Positions 30,571 through 35,208 of a stretch of DNA of 64,000 nucleotides are shown piece after piece. Both the position numbers and the translations under genes were made by a program. The notes under the pieces are model-generated. The model was given only the letters and a program-made list of their open reading frames with translations. It made no database searches and was not told the DNA's origin. Origin of the DNA: Aquiluna borgnonia (lineage in GTDB: Bacteria; Actinomycetota; Actinomycetes; Actinomycetales; Microbacteriaceae); NCBI RefSeq assembly GCF_013283855.1, contig NZ_CP054056.1, positions 62,001-126,000 on the forward strand. Direction: 5' to 3'. Within the stretch, counting starts at the first letter, position 1, and each line of letters opens with the position of its first letter.

Positions 30571-31224
30571 GTGCCTTTTGCAAAGTATTTAGCCGAGTTA
30601 CTCGGCGTCGCCGGAATCGTTGCCACCGTCCTCGGTGCGGGTTTCATGGTTTCTAACCTGGGTGCCGAACCGGCGGTTGGACTGGCACTGATTGCCATGG
30701 CGGTTGCTGCCGTGCTTTTCATCGTGATCTCGATCTTTGGTCCGATCTCGGGAGCACACCTCAACCCGGCTGTGACACTGGTGATGCTGGTTCAAAAGTC
30801 GATCTCGCTGCGCGATGCAATTTTCTATGTCGCATTCCAACTGCTCGGAGCCGTTGCCGGCGCTGCGACTGCAAACCTGATGTACGAGCAGGCGGTAATT
30901 GGTGCCAATGGGACGGTTCGCGGTGGTACTGGACAGTTGATTGGCGAGTTCGTTGCAACGGTGGGACTGGTGTTCATTGTGCTGTCGCTAATAAAACTCA
31001 ATCAGGGTGCGCTGATCGCTCCTGCGGTAGGGCTTTGGATTCTCGCTGGTCACTTCTTCACCAGCTCAACCTCATTCGCAAACCCAGCAGTGACCTTCGG
31101 CCGAGCCCTTTCTGGTTCGGTGACTGGAATCGAGTGGGGCTCGGTTCCAGCTTTTGTGGGGGTCCAGCTGGTTGCTGGGTTAGCCGCTCTAGGTCTTTTC
31201 AAATTGGTATTCAGCTCTAAGTAA
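30571..31224 (+). CDS. Aquaporin (MIP family), likely arsenite channel
   Basis: This 217-residue MIP channel has six helices and both pore motifs: NPA in [10 protein letters not shown] near residue 68 and NPA in [12 protein letters not shown] near residue 172. It starts with GTG, with TTAGGA upstream. It lies between arsR and arsC in the place where other bacteria have an arsenite pump (arsB/acr3). AqpS-type channels in Sinorhizobium let arsenite made by ArsC flow out down its gradient, and the same role is likely here. Confidence 0.88.
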
Positions 31225-31232
31225 GGAAGAAA

Positions 31233-31649
31233 ATGTCAAACCCAATCGCATCAGTAATGTTCGTCTGCATCCACAACGCTGGGCGCAGCCAGATGGCAGC
31301 CGCTTACCTGCAGCACCTGGCCGGAGACCGAGTAGAGGTTCGCTCCTCCGGAACCGCTCCTGCCGACACCGTGAACCCAGCGGTGGTTGAGGCCATGCTG
31401 GAAGAGGGCATTGACATCTCTGGCAACACCCCAAAGATTTTGACCGACGAGGCAGTTCTAGCCTCCGACTACGTCATCACCATGGGCTGCGGCGACAAGT
31501 GCCCGTTCTACCCCGGGAAGACCTACCTTGACTGGAAGCTAGCTGACCCAGCTGGTCAGGGAGTCGACTTTGTTCGTCCAATTCGCGATGAGATTCGCGG
31601 CATGGTTGAGGACCTAATTTCCAAGATCGACGCCAAGGCTGGTAACTAG
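31233..31649 (+). CDS. arsC: Arsenate reductase, LMW phosphatase type
   Basis: This 138-residue arsenate reductase carries the P-loop VCIHNAGRSQ (Cys12) and a GCGDKCPFYPG loop with two more cysteines. The latter resembles the mycothiol/mycoredoxin-linked corynebacterial enzymes more than the thioredoxin-linked staphylococcal type. It turns arsenate into arsenite, which the adjacent aquaporin can release. It lies 8 bp after the channel gene with an AAGGAAG site. Confidence 0.92.
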   Translation: MSNPIASVMFVCIHNAGRSQMAAAYLQHLAGDRVEVRSSGTAPADTVNPAVVEAMLEEGIDISGNTPKILTDEAVLASDYVITMGCGDKCPFYPGKTYLDWKLADPAGQGVDFVRPIRDEIRGMVEDLISKIDAKAGN

Positions 31650-33483: not shown

Positions 33484-34366
33484 CCAACTCCCAGGTTGGG
33501 TGCTGGTCCTTGGGCGCATAGGGGGTTAGCTGCAGGTGCTTGGGCAGCATGCCATCCCCTGAGGTCTTGCCCTTGAGGCGGCGATCAAAAAATGGAATCA
33601 CGTCTCTGCCAACCCACCGCACCGTCTCAATTAGGCCCCTCGAAACTGGCGCGAGCTGGCTTATGTCAGGCTGGGGGAAACGGTAGTTGAGGTTTAGCAG
33701 TTCAGCGGCCTGGTTGGCGATCGCGATGTGGCCGTGGCCCGAGAAGTGAACCATGTCATCGGCCCAGAAGACCAACTGCTCAAAATCTCTAATTCCGTAA
33801 ACATCCAGGACCGGCAGGTCAAATTCGTCCGCGACAGTTTCGATCAGGGTAGAAAACAACTCGGCTTTGTGTCGCAGTGGCTTGAAAACTCGAAGGTGAA
33901 GCGGGTTGATGGTATTTGCCACCACTACGTCGCAGCCGGCGGCCAGCAGCTGCTCAATTCCATCCCTGAGCAGTTCGCGCAGCTTTGGAAGCGACTGGGG
34001 CTTTGACATCAAATCATTGGAGCCCGCCATAACGGTTACCAGGTCTGGCTGAAGGTTGAGCGCCGCCGGCAACTGCTCGGTCATGATTTTTGAGAGCTTG
34101 GATCCTCTGAGCGCGAGGTTGGCATAGTGGAATTCGTAATTAGAATCGCTGGCTTCGCGGGCGAGAATGCCTGCTAGGCGATCGGTCCAGCCGTTGTGAT
34201 AGCGGTCAGCTTGAAAGGTGAAGTCACCCAGGCCCTCGGAGAGCGAATCTCCGATTGCCACGTAGGAGCGGTAAGGCTTACCAATCACGACACCATGGAA
34301 CGTTTGCATGGTGAACCAAAGGTTTCCACTAACCCTCGTGTTGGTTGACTGCCGGTAAATGTTCAC
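33473..34366 (-). CDS. SGNH/GDSL hydrolase
   Basis: This 297-residue esterase or lipase-like protein has GDSLSEGL as block I, MAGSNDLM as block III (GxND) and DMVHFSGHGH as block V (DxxH). It has no signal peptide. The frame begins at GTG 34366 within the palindrome CACAGCGCTGTG (34364-34375), but ATG 34309 (MQTFHGVV) would start nearer the conserved fold. The choice is open. The substrate is unknown. Confidence 0.85.
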   Translation of the reverse strand: MNIYRQSTNTRVSGNLWFTMQTFHGVVIGKPYRSYVAIGDSLSEGLGDFTFQADRYHNGWTDRLAGILAREASDSNYEFHYANLALRGSKLSKIMTEQLPAALNLQPDLVTVMAGSNDLMSKPQSLPKLRELLRDGIEQLLAAGCDVVVANTINPLHLRVFKPLRHKAELFSTLIETVADEFDLPVLDVYGIRDFEQLVFWADDMVHFSGHGHIAIANQAAELLNLNYRFPQPDISQLAPVSRGLIETVRWVGRDVIPFFDRRLKGKTSGDGMLPKHLQLTPYAPKDQHPTWELVSA

Positions 34367-34375
34367 AGCGCTGTG
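34364..34375. repeat. 12-bp perfect palindrome
   Basis: CACAGCGCTGTG is a perfect palindrome between the GDSL hydrolase and the promoter of the leader peptide. It could be an operator for either side. No matching copy was noticed elsewhere. Confidence 0.4.
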
Positions 34376-34394
34376 GAAACATTCAGCATCAAAT

Positions 34395-34423
34395 TTGACT
34401 TTTGACCTTTAGTTATGGATGAT
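34395..34423 (+). promoter_or_regulatory. Promoter of the Met/Cys leader peptide
   Basis: TTGACT (34395-34400) and GATGAT (34418-34423) are 17 bp apart, the ideal spacing. The expected transcription start, 7-8 bp further on, coincides with the ATG at 34431, so the leader peptide would be leaderless. Confidence 0.55.
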
Positions 34424-34430
34424 TTCAGCA

Positions 34431-34517
34431 ATGTCTACTCGAGTGAAGTCCATCGCGCTGGTTACCAGCGCCATGATGTCCTGCTCGATGTGTATGTGCA
34501 TGCGCATGTGCCGCTAA
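34431..34517 (+). CDS. Met/Cys-rich leaderless leader peptide
   Basis: A 28-codon open frame ends in MSCSMCMCMRMCR. In all it has 7 Met and 4 Cys, with 10 of the 14 codons from 15 to 28 being Met or Cys. Its ATG sits at the predicted transcription start. It lies about 100 bp upstream of a wHTH regulator gene. An inverted repeat GCGCTGGT-T-ACCAGCGC (34455-34471) is inside it. GTGCCG at its end (34508-34513) can pair with CGGCAC (34545-34550), and a hairpin GCACG/CGTGC (34567-34581) follows. This fits a ribosome-based attenuator sensing Met or Cys supply. Mycobacteria have comparable leaderless poly-cysteine uORFs, but the role here is inference. Confidence 0.6.
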   Translation: MSTRVKSIALVTSAMMSCSMCMCMRMCR

Positions 34518-34614
34518 TCGACCCAGCTAGTTCGATTCAGCCAACGGCACCAGCACCCCAACAAACGCACGTGATTCGTGCACCAGTTTCCGCACACACT
34601 CTAAGGACCTAAAA

Positions 34615-35208
34615 ATGACAAACCTCACCACCACCAAGCTGGAAGCCAAAGGCTTCGCCCTCTACGTTGGAATCTCAGAGCAGGACGCCGAGGCCGCTGG
34701 CCTGAGCCTCGCCGAAATTGCCACCGAACTTCGTGCCACCATCGCTCGCCTGCTCCCCGAAAAAGCCAGCGAAACCTATGCCACCCTGGCCTTAGCTCCG
34801 GAGGGCGTAACCGGGCGAAACCTAGACATCACTCGCGTTGCACTGAAAGAGCCCAAGGCCACCGCAACCAAAGAAACCAAGGCAGCCGAACAGGAAGCCG
34901 CCAAAGGACTGGTGGTTGATCTGGTTAGGCGCCGCCTGTTTGTTGATGGCCGTAACGCTCAGCTCACCTGCAAGGAATTTGAGCTTTTTGCCTTCCTGAT
35001 TGAGAACACCGGCAGGACCGTGACTCGTCAGGAGATCGCGGCCATCTCGGAACGCTGCGGAGAACCAACCCCGAACGCAAGAACCATAGACGTCCACGTC
35101 AGAAGACTACGCGGAAAGATTGAGGGCTACGAAGACGTGATTCGGACCGCTCGTGGTCAGGGTTACCGATTCGATAAGCACCCCGATGTCCTAATCGAGG
35201 AGCTCTAG
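34615..35208 (+). CDS. OmpR-type winged-helix regulator without a receiver domain
   Basis: This 197-residue protein has a C-terminal Trans_reg_C winged helix at about residues 98-190 (LVVDLVRRRLFVDG, LTCKEFELFAFLI, RTIDVHVRRLRGKI, RTARGQGYRF). The N-terminal 95 residues are not a phosphorylation receiver and end in an Ala/Lys/Glu-rich linker, and I do not recognise them. No kinase is nearby. An AAGGA site lies 7 nt before the ATG. The Met/Cys leader peptide upstream suggests its synthesis may follow sulfur amino acid supply. Its TAG stop is part of the next gene's -10 box. Confidence 0.85.
   Translation: MTNLTTTKLEAKGFALYVGISEQDAEAAGLSLAEIATELRATIARLLPEKASETYATLALAPEGVTGRNLDITRVALKEPKATATKETKAAEQEAAKGLVVDLVRRRLFVDGRNAQLTCKEFELFAFLIENTGRTVTRQEIAAISERCGEPTPNARTIDVHVRRLRGKIEGYEDVIRTARGQGYRFDKHPDVLIEEL

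Follow-up and report, generated by a model that had tools for sequence, protein, structure and literature searches.

The gene for a stand-alone OmpR-type regulator in the window (the whole stretch of 64,000 nucleotides analysed here) is preceded by a short open reading frame crowded with methionine and cysteine codons, and this leader probably serves as a sulfur-amino-acid attenuator that acts mainly on translation of the regulator. As judged by sequence comparison, the reading frame is conserved, its Met/Cys codons are conserved and, within the genus, so is an RNA fold that reaches the Shine–Dalgarno (SD) sequence of the regulator. From this arrangement we infer a leaderless start, stalling of the ribosome, starvation as the ON state, the supply of Met or Cys as the signal and the presence of target genes elsewhere.

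The initial annotation had described a 28-codon Met/Cys-rich frame, and such a frame is indeed present at 34431–34517 on the forward strand, to which all features below also belong. Its translation, MSTRVKSIALVTSAMMSCSMCMCMRMCR followed by the stop codon, contains Met or Cys at 11 of 28 residues and has the C-terminal end MMSCSMCMCMRMCR; the Met/Cys codon block, MMSCSMCMCMRMC, occupies 34473–34511 and comprises codons 15–27. Use of an alternative in-frame ATG at 34419 would lengthen the peptide to 32 codons, and relatives conserve the start at 34431 instead. A promoter scan of 34300–34700 returned a single site (9 of 12 matches; mean 0.4 in shuffled sequences), TTGACT-17-GATGAT at 34395–34423, the second hexamer of which stops 7 nt short of the leader ATG; relatives have TTGAC-type hexamers at comparable spacing from their ATG (by eye). 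This spacing places the predicted transcription start at or adjoining the ATG, a position that would make the leader ORF leaderless; in mycobacterial leaderless ORFs the transcript starts at the ATG, and the counterpart here is a promoter-like site at the right distance. As in amino-acid leader-peptide attenuators, the ORF is short and the codons of the candidate sensed amino acids are clustered. Among the 1021 ORFs of 15–60 amino acids in the 64 kb window the leader is the most Met/Cys-dense, with ten such residues in the last 16 compared with four in the runner-up, and the maximum in 30 Markov-1 sequences of 64 kb was 4–7; the clustering is far from chance. The peptide matches no Pfam or NCBIfam model. 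At the leader, Rfam gave no known riboswitch or T-box at the gathering score and only two chance matches (E of 5–10); over the whole window it gave one tRNA.

The regulator gene (34615–35208) encodes 197 amino acids, starts 97 nt after the leader stop codon and is preceded by the SD sequence AAGGA at 34603–34607, assigned by inspection. The initial annotation had placed a winged helix–turn–helix (wHTH) regulator after the leader, and Pfam identifies an OmpR/PhoB-type Trans_reg_C wHTH domain in this ORF, confined to the C-terminal part (matches up to E = 1 considered). Pfam finds no N-terminal receiver domain, so that the combination of receiver and Trans_reg_C seen in OmpR-type response regulators is missing, and the first approximately 50 residues match no NCBIfam or Pfam model; a structure predicted from 12 sequences was of poor quality (pLDDT 48.7). 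The gene that would be controlled therefore encodes a wHTH regulator, not a protein for synthesis or transport of the amino acid that would be sensed, and by eye no sulfur gene was recognised beside the regulator in nine neighbourhoods. Several other neighbours were noted by inspection. In the window an aquaporin-like gene adjoins an arsenate-reductase-like gene at 30571–31649, about 3 kb upstream of the leader; both types of gene also occur in L185 (324–4621), together with a CopA-like P-type ATPase; and in L181 and L183, from family f6 and from genus g11 of family f1, a uracil-phosphoribosyltransferase-like gene lies before the regulator on the same strand.

An orthologue of the regulator was found in 20 of 22 congeneric genomes (own included; one is cut by a contig end), and the two genomes without it are 64% and 70% complete. 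The comparison of regions upstream of orthologues that the initial annotation had called for shows the frame and its Met/Cys codons to be kept in all 20 congeneric loci, with a leader of 24–29 codons before the orthologous regulator in each, as well as in a 21st alignment row (L008). Of 16 further loci, L014–L016 were left out as unrelated (33–36% identity over short stretches), and L001–L013 mostly repeat genomes of the congeneric set. In the DNA alignment all gaps within the leader frame are multiples of three and the ATG is present in 21 of 21 rows. As an objective rule we took the highest Met/Cys count in the last 16 residues among the upstream ORFs; this count is 6–11 in the 20 congeneric loci, compared with 2–3 on the antisense strands and at most five in ten Markov copies per locus. 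Both Cys codons are in use in the genus leaders (82 TGC and 12 TGT). A conserved frame between drifting flanks had been anticipated: the frame behaved as foreseen, the flank did not, as the segment 34546–34581 is more conserved than the ORF. As far as sequence can tell, these comparisons support the original interpretation of the leader as a stalling site responsive to Met or Cys supply.

In single-sequence folds the leader RNA of the genus tends toward a closed multi-branch structure. RNAalifold alone returned only helices P3 and P4 and a weak third helix; the others were taken from the single-sequence folds and then tested. Helix P0, supported by folds and partner exchange, pairs 34433–34436 (GUCU) with SD nucleotides 34605–34608 (GGAC), and its partner across the genus is the SD or the bases that follow it. 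The outer helix of P1 (34439–34443 with 34484–34488) pairs codons 3–5 with the Ser-Met codon region and encloses hairpin 1 (34455–34461 with 34465–34471), which falls within the ORF at a stretch of unconserved peptide; hairpin 1 reads GCGCTGG/CCAGCGC in the window and GCGTTGG/CCAACGC, GCGCAGC/GCTGCGC or GCGAAGC/GCTTCGC elsewhere. P2 joins the Met/Cys codons themselves (ATGTGC.., 34490–34498) to a GCACAT/GCACAC-like sequence at 34591–34599, a few bases 5′ of the regulator SD. P3 is a hairpin that covers the last codons and the stop of the leader, GTGCCGCTAATCGA (34508–34521), paired with 34532–34550, and P4 is a 5 bp hairpin (34567–34571 with 34577–34581) held by the 36 nt element GGCACCAGCACCCCAACAAACGCACGTGATTCGTGC (34546–34581). 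The GTGCCG/CGGCAC pairing proposed in the initial annotation was recovered as GTGCC/GGCAC and is kept in 21 of 21 aligned rows. A pairing of the SD with the leader through GTCCT was also considered and dropped, because by eye it is not kept between species. The 36 nt element is nearly invariant over the 21 rows and, within the genus, more conserved than the ORF; with up to three mismatches it occurs in nine of nine own-genus genomes and in none of 389 others in the family sample, in a single copy each. Such conservation exceeds what an attenuator spacer needs, and the element is perhaps a protein site or a Rho site.

Four of the helices (P1 outer, hairpin 1, P3 and P4) could be scored on the genus alignment, where 92.0% of 462 cells are paired and eight of 22 pairs are changed on both sides. 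Their covariation score is 0.156, compared with 0.082 after shuffling (0 of 500 as high) and 0.026–0.058 when slid; further pair types are not above the shuffles (14 versus a mean of 14.3; 366 of 500). Changes on both sides affect two of five pairs in the outer helix of P1 and four of seven in hairpin 1, with 88.6% and 83.0% of cells paired, respectively, and hairpin 1 stands in a shifted register in several alignment rows. Because the alignment is unreliable at P2 and P0, these were assessed by partner exchange among 13 clade representatives, with helix segments that had been chosen after the folds had been seen. For P2 the native energy is −11.52 kcal/mol compared with −9.09 kcal/mol for exchanged partners (two of 20,000 permutations as good; native better in 11 of 13 representatives, no better in the other two). 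The corresponding values are −15.2 and −11.6 kcal/mol for P3 (0 of 20,000; 12 of 13), −5.4 and −4.5 kcal/mol for P0 (81 of 20,000; ten of 13) and −10.3 and −9.2 kcal/mol for P1 outer (138 of 20,000; ten of 13). In the window's species P2 reaches −9.5 kcal/mol natively and −10.0 kcal/mol with foreign partners, one of three such rows in a separate exchange, and the total fold of this species is modestly stable (z = −1.67; ten of 200 shuffles as good). Judged from these exchanges, the pairing of Met/Cys codons with the SD region of the regulator covaries between species of the genus, weakly so in the window's own. Of the alternative folds that hide or free the downstream SD in ermC-like systems, the hiding one has support in the genus from folding and covariation.

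No terminator-like site was found in 34300–34700, where a trp/his-type attenuator would carry an intrinsic terminator, and the leader RNA speaks for control at the level of translation initiation and not for an intrinsic terminator. Transcription attenuation of another kind, in which leader translation would determine whether transcription ends ahead of the regulator, through Rho or otherwise, and the C-rich, G-poor CACCAGCACCCCAACAAAC would be the Rho-loading site, is a rather unlikely alternative. In its favour, the invariant element is rich in C and most of it stays unpaired between P3 and P4, and candidate Rho-binding sites have been marked in the case of Mycobacterium Cys leaders (Seliverstov et al., 2005; PMC1262725). 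Apart from the missing intrinsic terminator, however, the covarying pairing extends to the SD region, which termination control would not need.

The association of leader and regulator extends beyond the genus. The regulator occurs in 49 of 50 Microbacteriaceae genomes chosen from 45 genera (1e-14 or better), and 30 family loci were examined, own genus apart; of the loci from the genome searches as a whole, L037–L055 and L120–L148 were left out. A leader precedes the regulator in 28 of these 30, mostly of the form MTDNARTLTSLEAxGNAGMMMPGxAVMCCRMCR followed by a stop codon. The remaining two, L057 and L058 of genus g11, keep the regulator and have no Met/Cys leader within 1.1 kb upstream; they are a natural case of loss. 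Under the objective rule the count is at least six in 22 of the 30 loci and at least four in 28, compared with an antisense maximum of five (none of 30 reaching six). A scan of 396 genomes from the order for the nucleotide pattern of the leader end gave matches in 28, namely in 27 of the 34 Microbacteriaceae and in one member of f6, never more than once per genome and always, at all 28 sites, in a leader-like frame; the own-genus genome in this sample lacks the exact pattern. Of the 30 other family loci, 27 (for example L060–L085) retain the motif CGAATG at the end of the leader in a similar context, and for this constraint no consistent downstream partner was found in own-family loci.

In other families of the order a single-sequence query found the regulator in six of 28 genomes (1e-20), and with a profile (1e-30) all 27 genomes chosen from f6, f7 and f12 gave a match. 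The f12 matches begin only at profile position 33–77 of 185, and orthology in f12 is less sure because the N-terminal part of the regulator is unmatched. At the level of the class (196 genomes), the matches listed include two near whole-profile ones outside these families (G873 and G939), the others listed covering the wHTH part plus a variable portion of the linker. With the orthologue comparison carried this far, the leader is recognisable in four families. In f12, nine of ten loci have Met-rich leaders (for example SSMMMMMRMMRRQPSL) with tails like RRQPSL or xQPRx (by eye), and the objective count is at least five in nine of ten against an antisense maximum of four. The Met-rich leaders of L119 and L167–L174 end in RQPSL or similar, and that of L169 has six consecutive Met. 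In f6 a Cys/Arg-Met tail of CCRMHA type was seen by eye in 13 of 18 loci and not in L114, L151, L152, L158 or L162; here the plain Met/Cys count is no higher than on the antisense strand and does not set f6 apart, so that the case for this family rests on the shared tail. Two of five f7 loci are clear (MCPAGMCMLCVRCR) and the others doubtful (by eye). Across families the leaders thus appear to drift between the two sulfur amino acids, from mostly Met (f12) through Met and Cys to mostly Cys (f6, the latter by eye).

In the rest of the family a P2-type pairing of codons with downstream sequence is not evident (at most ten of 200 shuffles as good in four of 27 loci; z between −2.7 and 1.6). In f6 the ORF end, TCGAATG(C), has an exact complement of 7–9 nt located 90–101 nt downstream in eight of 18 loci; taken singly, these loci do only moderately well against shuffles (one to 60 of 200), and the shared place of the complement is the stronger argument for this helix. 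L149 and L157 pair in another register (46 and 55 of 200 shuffles). In the f12 loci examined the ORF end pairs with downstream sequence bearing GGCTGAC (z from −2.4 to −0.3). An ORF-end helix therefore recurs, and outside the genus the exact switch may be a different one.

The drift in composition also bears on the idea that the nascent peptide itself is the sensor, with Met, Cys and, in f6, His binding Cu(I) or another thiophilic metal, or with the peptide arresting translation in response to a drug or redox signal. All three of these residues are ligands of Cu(I). The arsenate-reductase-like and aquaporin-like genes about 3 kb upstream and the CopA-like ATPase of L185 (by inspection) would suit a metal signal, and a nascent-protein copper sensor has been reported (PMC9973294). 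Yet metal genes were not recognised by eye in the other neighbourhoods among the nine, the order of residues is not kept between families, and the Met-rich leaders of f12 and the Cys-bearing ones of f6 suit amino-acid supply at least equally, which makes a peptide sensor improbable. That only an RNA structure or DNA operator is conserved, with the ORF as a by-product, would fit the near-invariance of the 36 nt element in the genus, the retention of CGAATG and similar context in 27 loci of the 30 from the rest of the family and the downstream complement in f6, but is very unlikely in view of in-frame gaps in multiples of three, an ATG in 21 of 21 rows, the use of both Cys codons in the genus (82 TGC, 12 TGT) and Met/Cys residues that persist though nucleotides and fold differ between families.

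Under the favoured reading, translational attenuation by sulfur-amino-acid supply, ribosomes would traverse the leader and leave when Met and Cys are sufficient, and the RNA would close over the start of the regulator. When Met-tRNA or Cys-tRNA runs short, a ribosome would sit on codons 15–27 and hold P0, P1 and P2 apart, so that the SD would be free and the regulator would be made; this would then act on genes elsewhere, probably for getting or saving reduced sulfur. The gene content of the genus is relevant here. MetE (PF01717) matches in none of 22 genus genomes and PAPS reductase (PF01507) in only one, which is not the window's, and for this reason the supply of reduced sulfur should matter in the genus. 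The S-methyl-transferase domain (PF02574) is found in 11 of the 22, four of the matches lying in MetH-like open frames of about 1200 amino acids, the window's genome included. Three genomes that are 98–99% complete (G009, G010 and G017) match none of PF01507, PF01717 and PF02574 and yet keep the leader, so that control of methionine synthesis is unlikely to be the common purpose; uptake or a general response to sulfur starvation seems likelier.

The leader is widespread and lacks a Pfam or NCBIfam model. Because the gene that follows encodes a regulator and not an enzyme, an entire regulon could be tied through the leader to how much of two sulfur amino acids is available. For the regulator, uncharacterised so far and found in 49 of the 50 family genomes searched, this supplies a functional hypothesis. 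The change of amino acid between families offers a natural series on how attenuators change specificity. Several amino acids, among which is Cys, have known leader peptides. In a limited literature collection, searches found no Met leader peptide, and searches for the leader peptide strings or for Microbacteriaceae leader peptides gave nothing on this system. Tentatively, this may be the first methionine-responsive bacterial leader-peptide attenuator, with the Met/Cys codons as both the sensor and a strand of the helix that closes the regulator, and with the regulator as a master switch of sulfur starvation in several actinobacterial families, kept even where no methionine synthase is found.

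In translational attenuation of the ermC type, the signal is an antibiotic, and a ribosome that stalls on the leader opens the mRNA structure in which the SD is hidden. The stalling proposed here would open an SD-hiding fold in the same way; the antibiotic signal is the difference. The whiB7/wblC system likewise has an actinobacterial uORF that controls a transcription factor and responds also to amino-acid starvation, but it uses a Rho-independent terminator and a regulator of another family, and Met/Cys codons go unmentioned in the available excerpt of the account (PMC11550727). Cys leader peptides have been described in Mycobacterium, Propionibacterium acnes and Bifidobacterium longum (Seliverstov et al., 2005; PMC1262725); they too carry Cys codons in runs close to the stop of the leader, in Mycobacterium without a conserved terminator hairpin, but they lie 5′ of cys/cbs genes, and the same actinobacterial survey, in the part available, reports methionine operons without conserved upstream RNA structure. 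Closest are the Cys-rich leaderless ORFs of mycobacteria (PMC4633059), the polycysteine uORFs of which mediate Cys-responsive attenuation (Canestrari et al., 2020, as cited in PMC9031893 and PMC13236596). These share with the present leader a short ORF (here predicted to be leaderless) with regulatory codons near the stop, 5′ of the controlled actinobacterial gene. They differ in that Cys codons alone are replaced here by a mixture of Met and Cys, mostly Met in f12, and in that the controlled gene is a regulator rather than a Cys operon.
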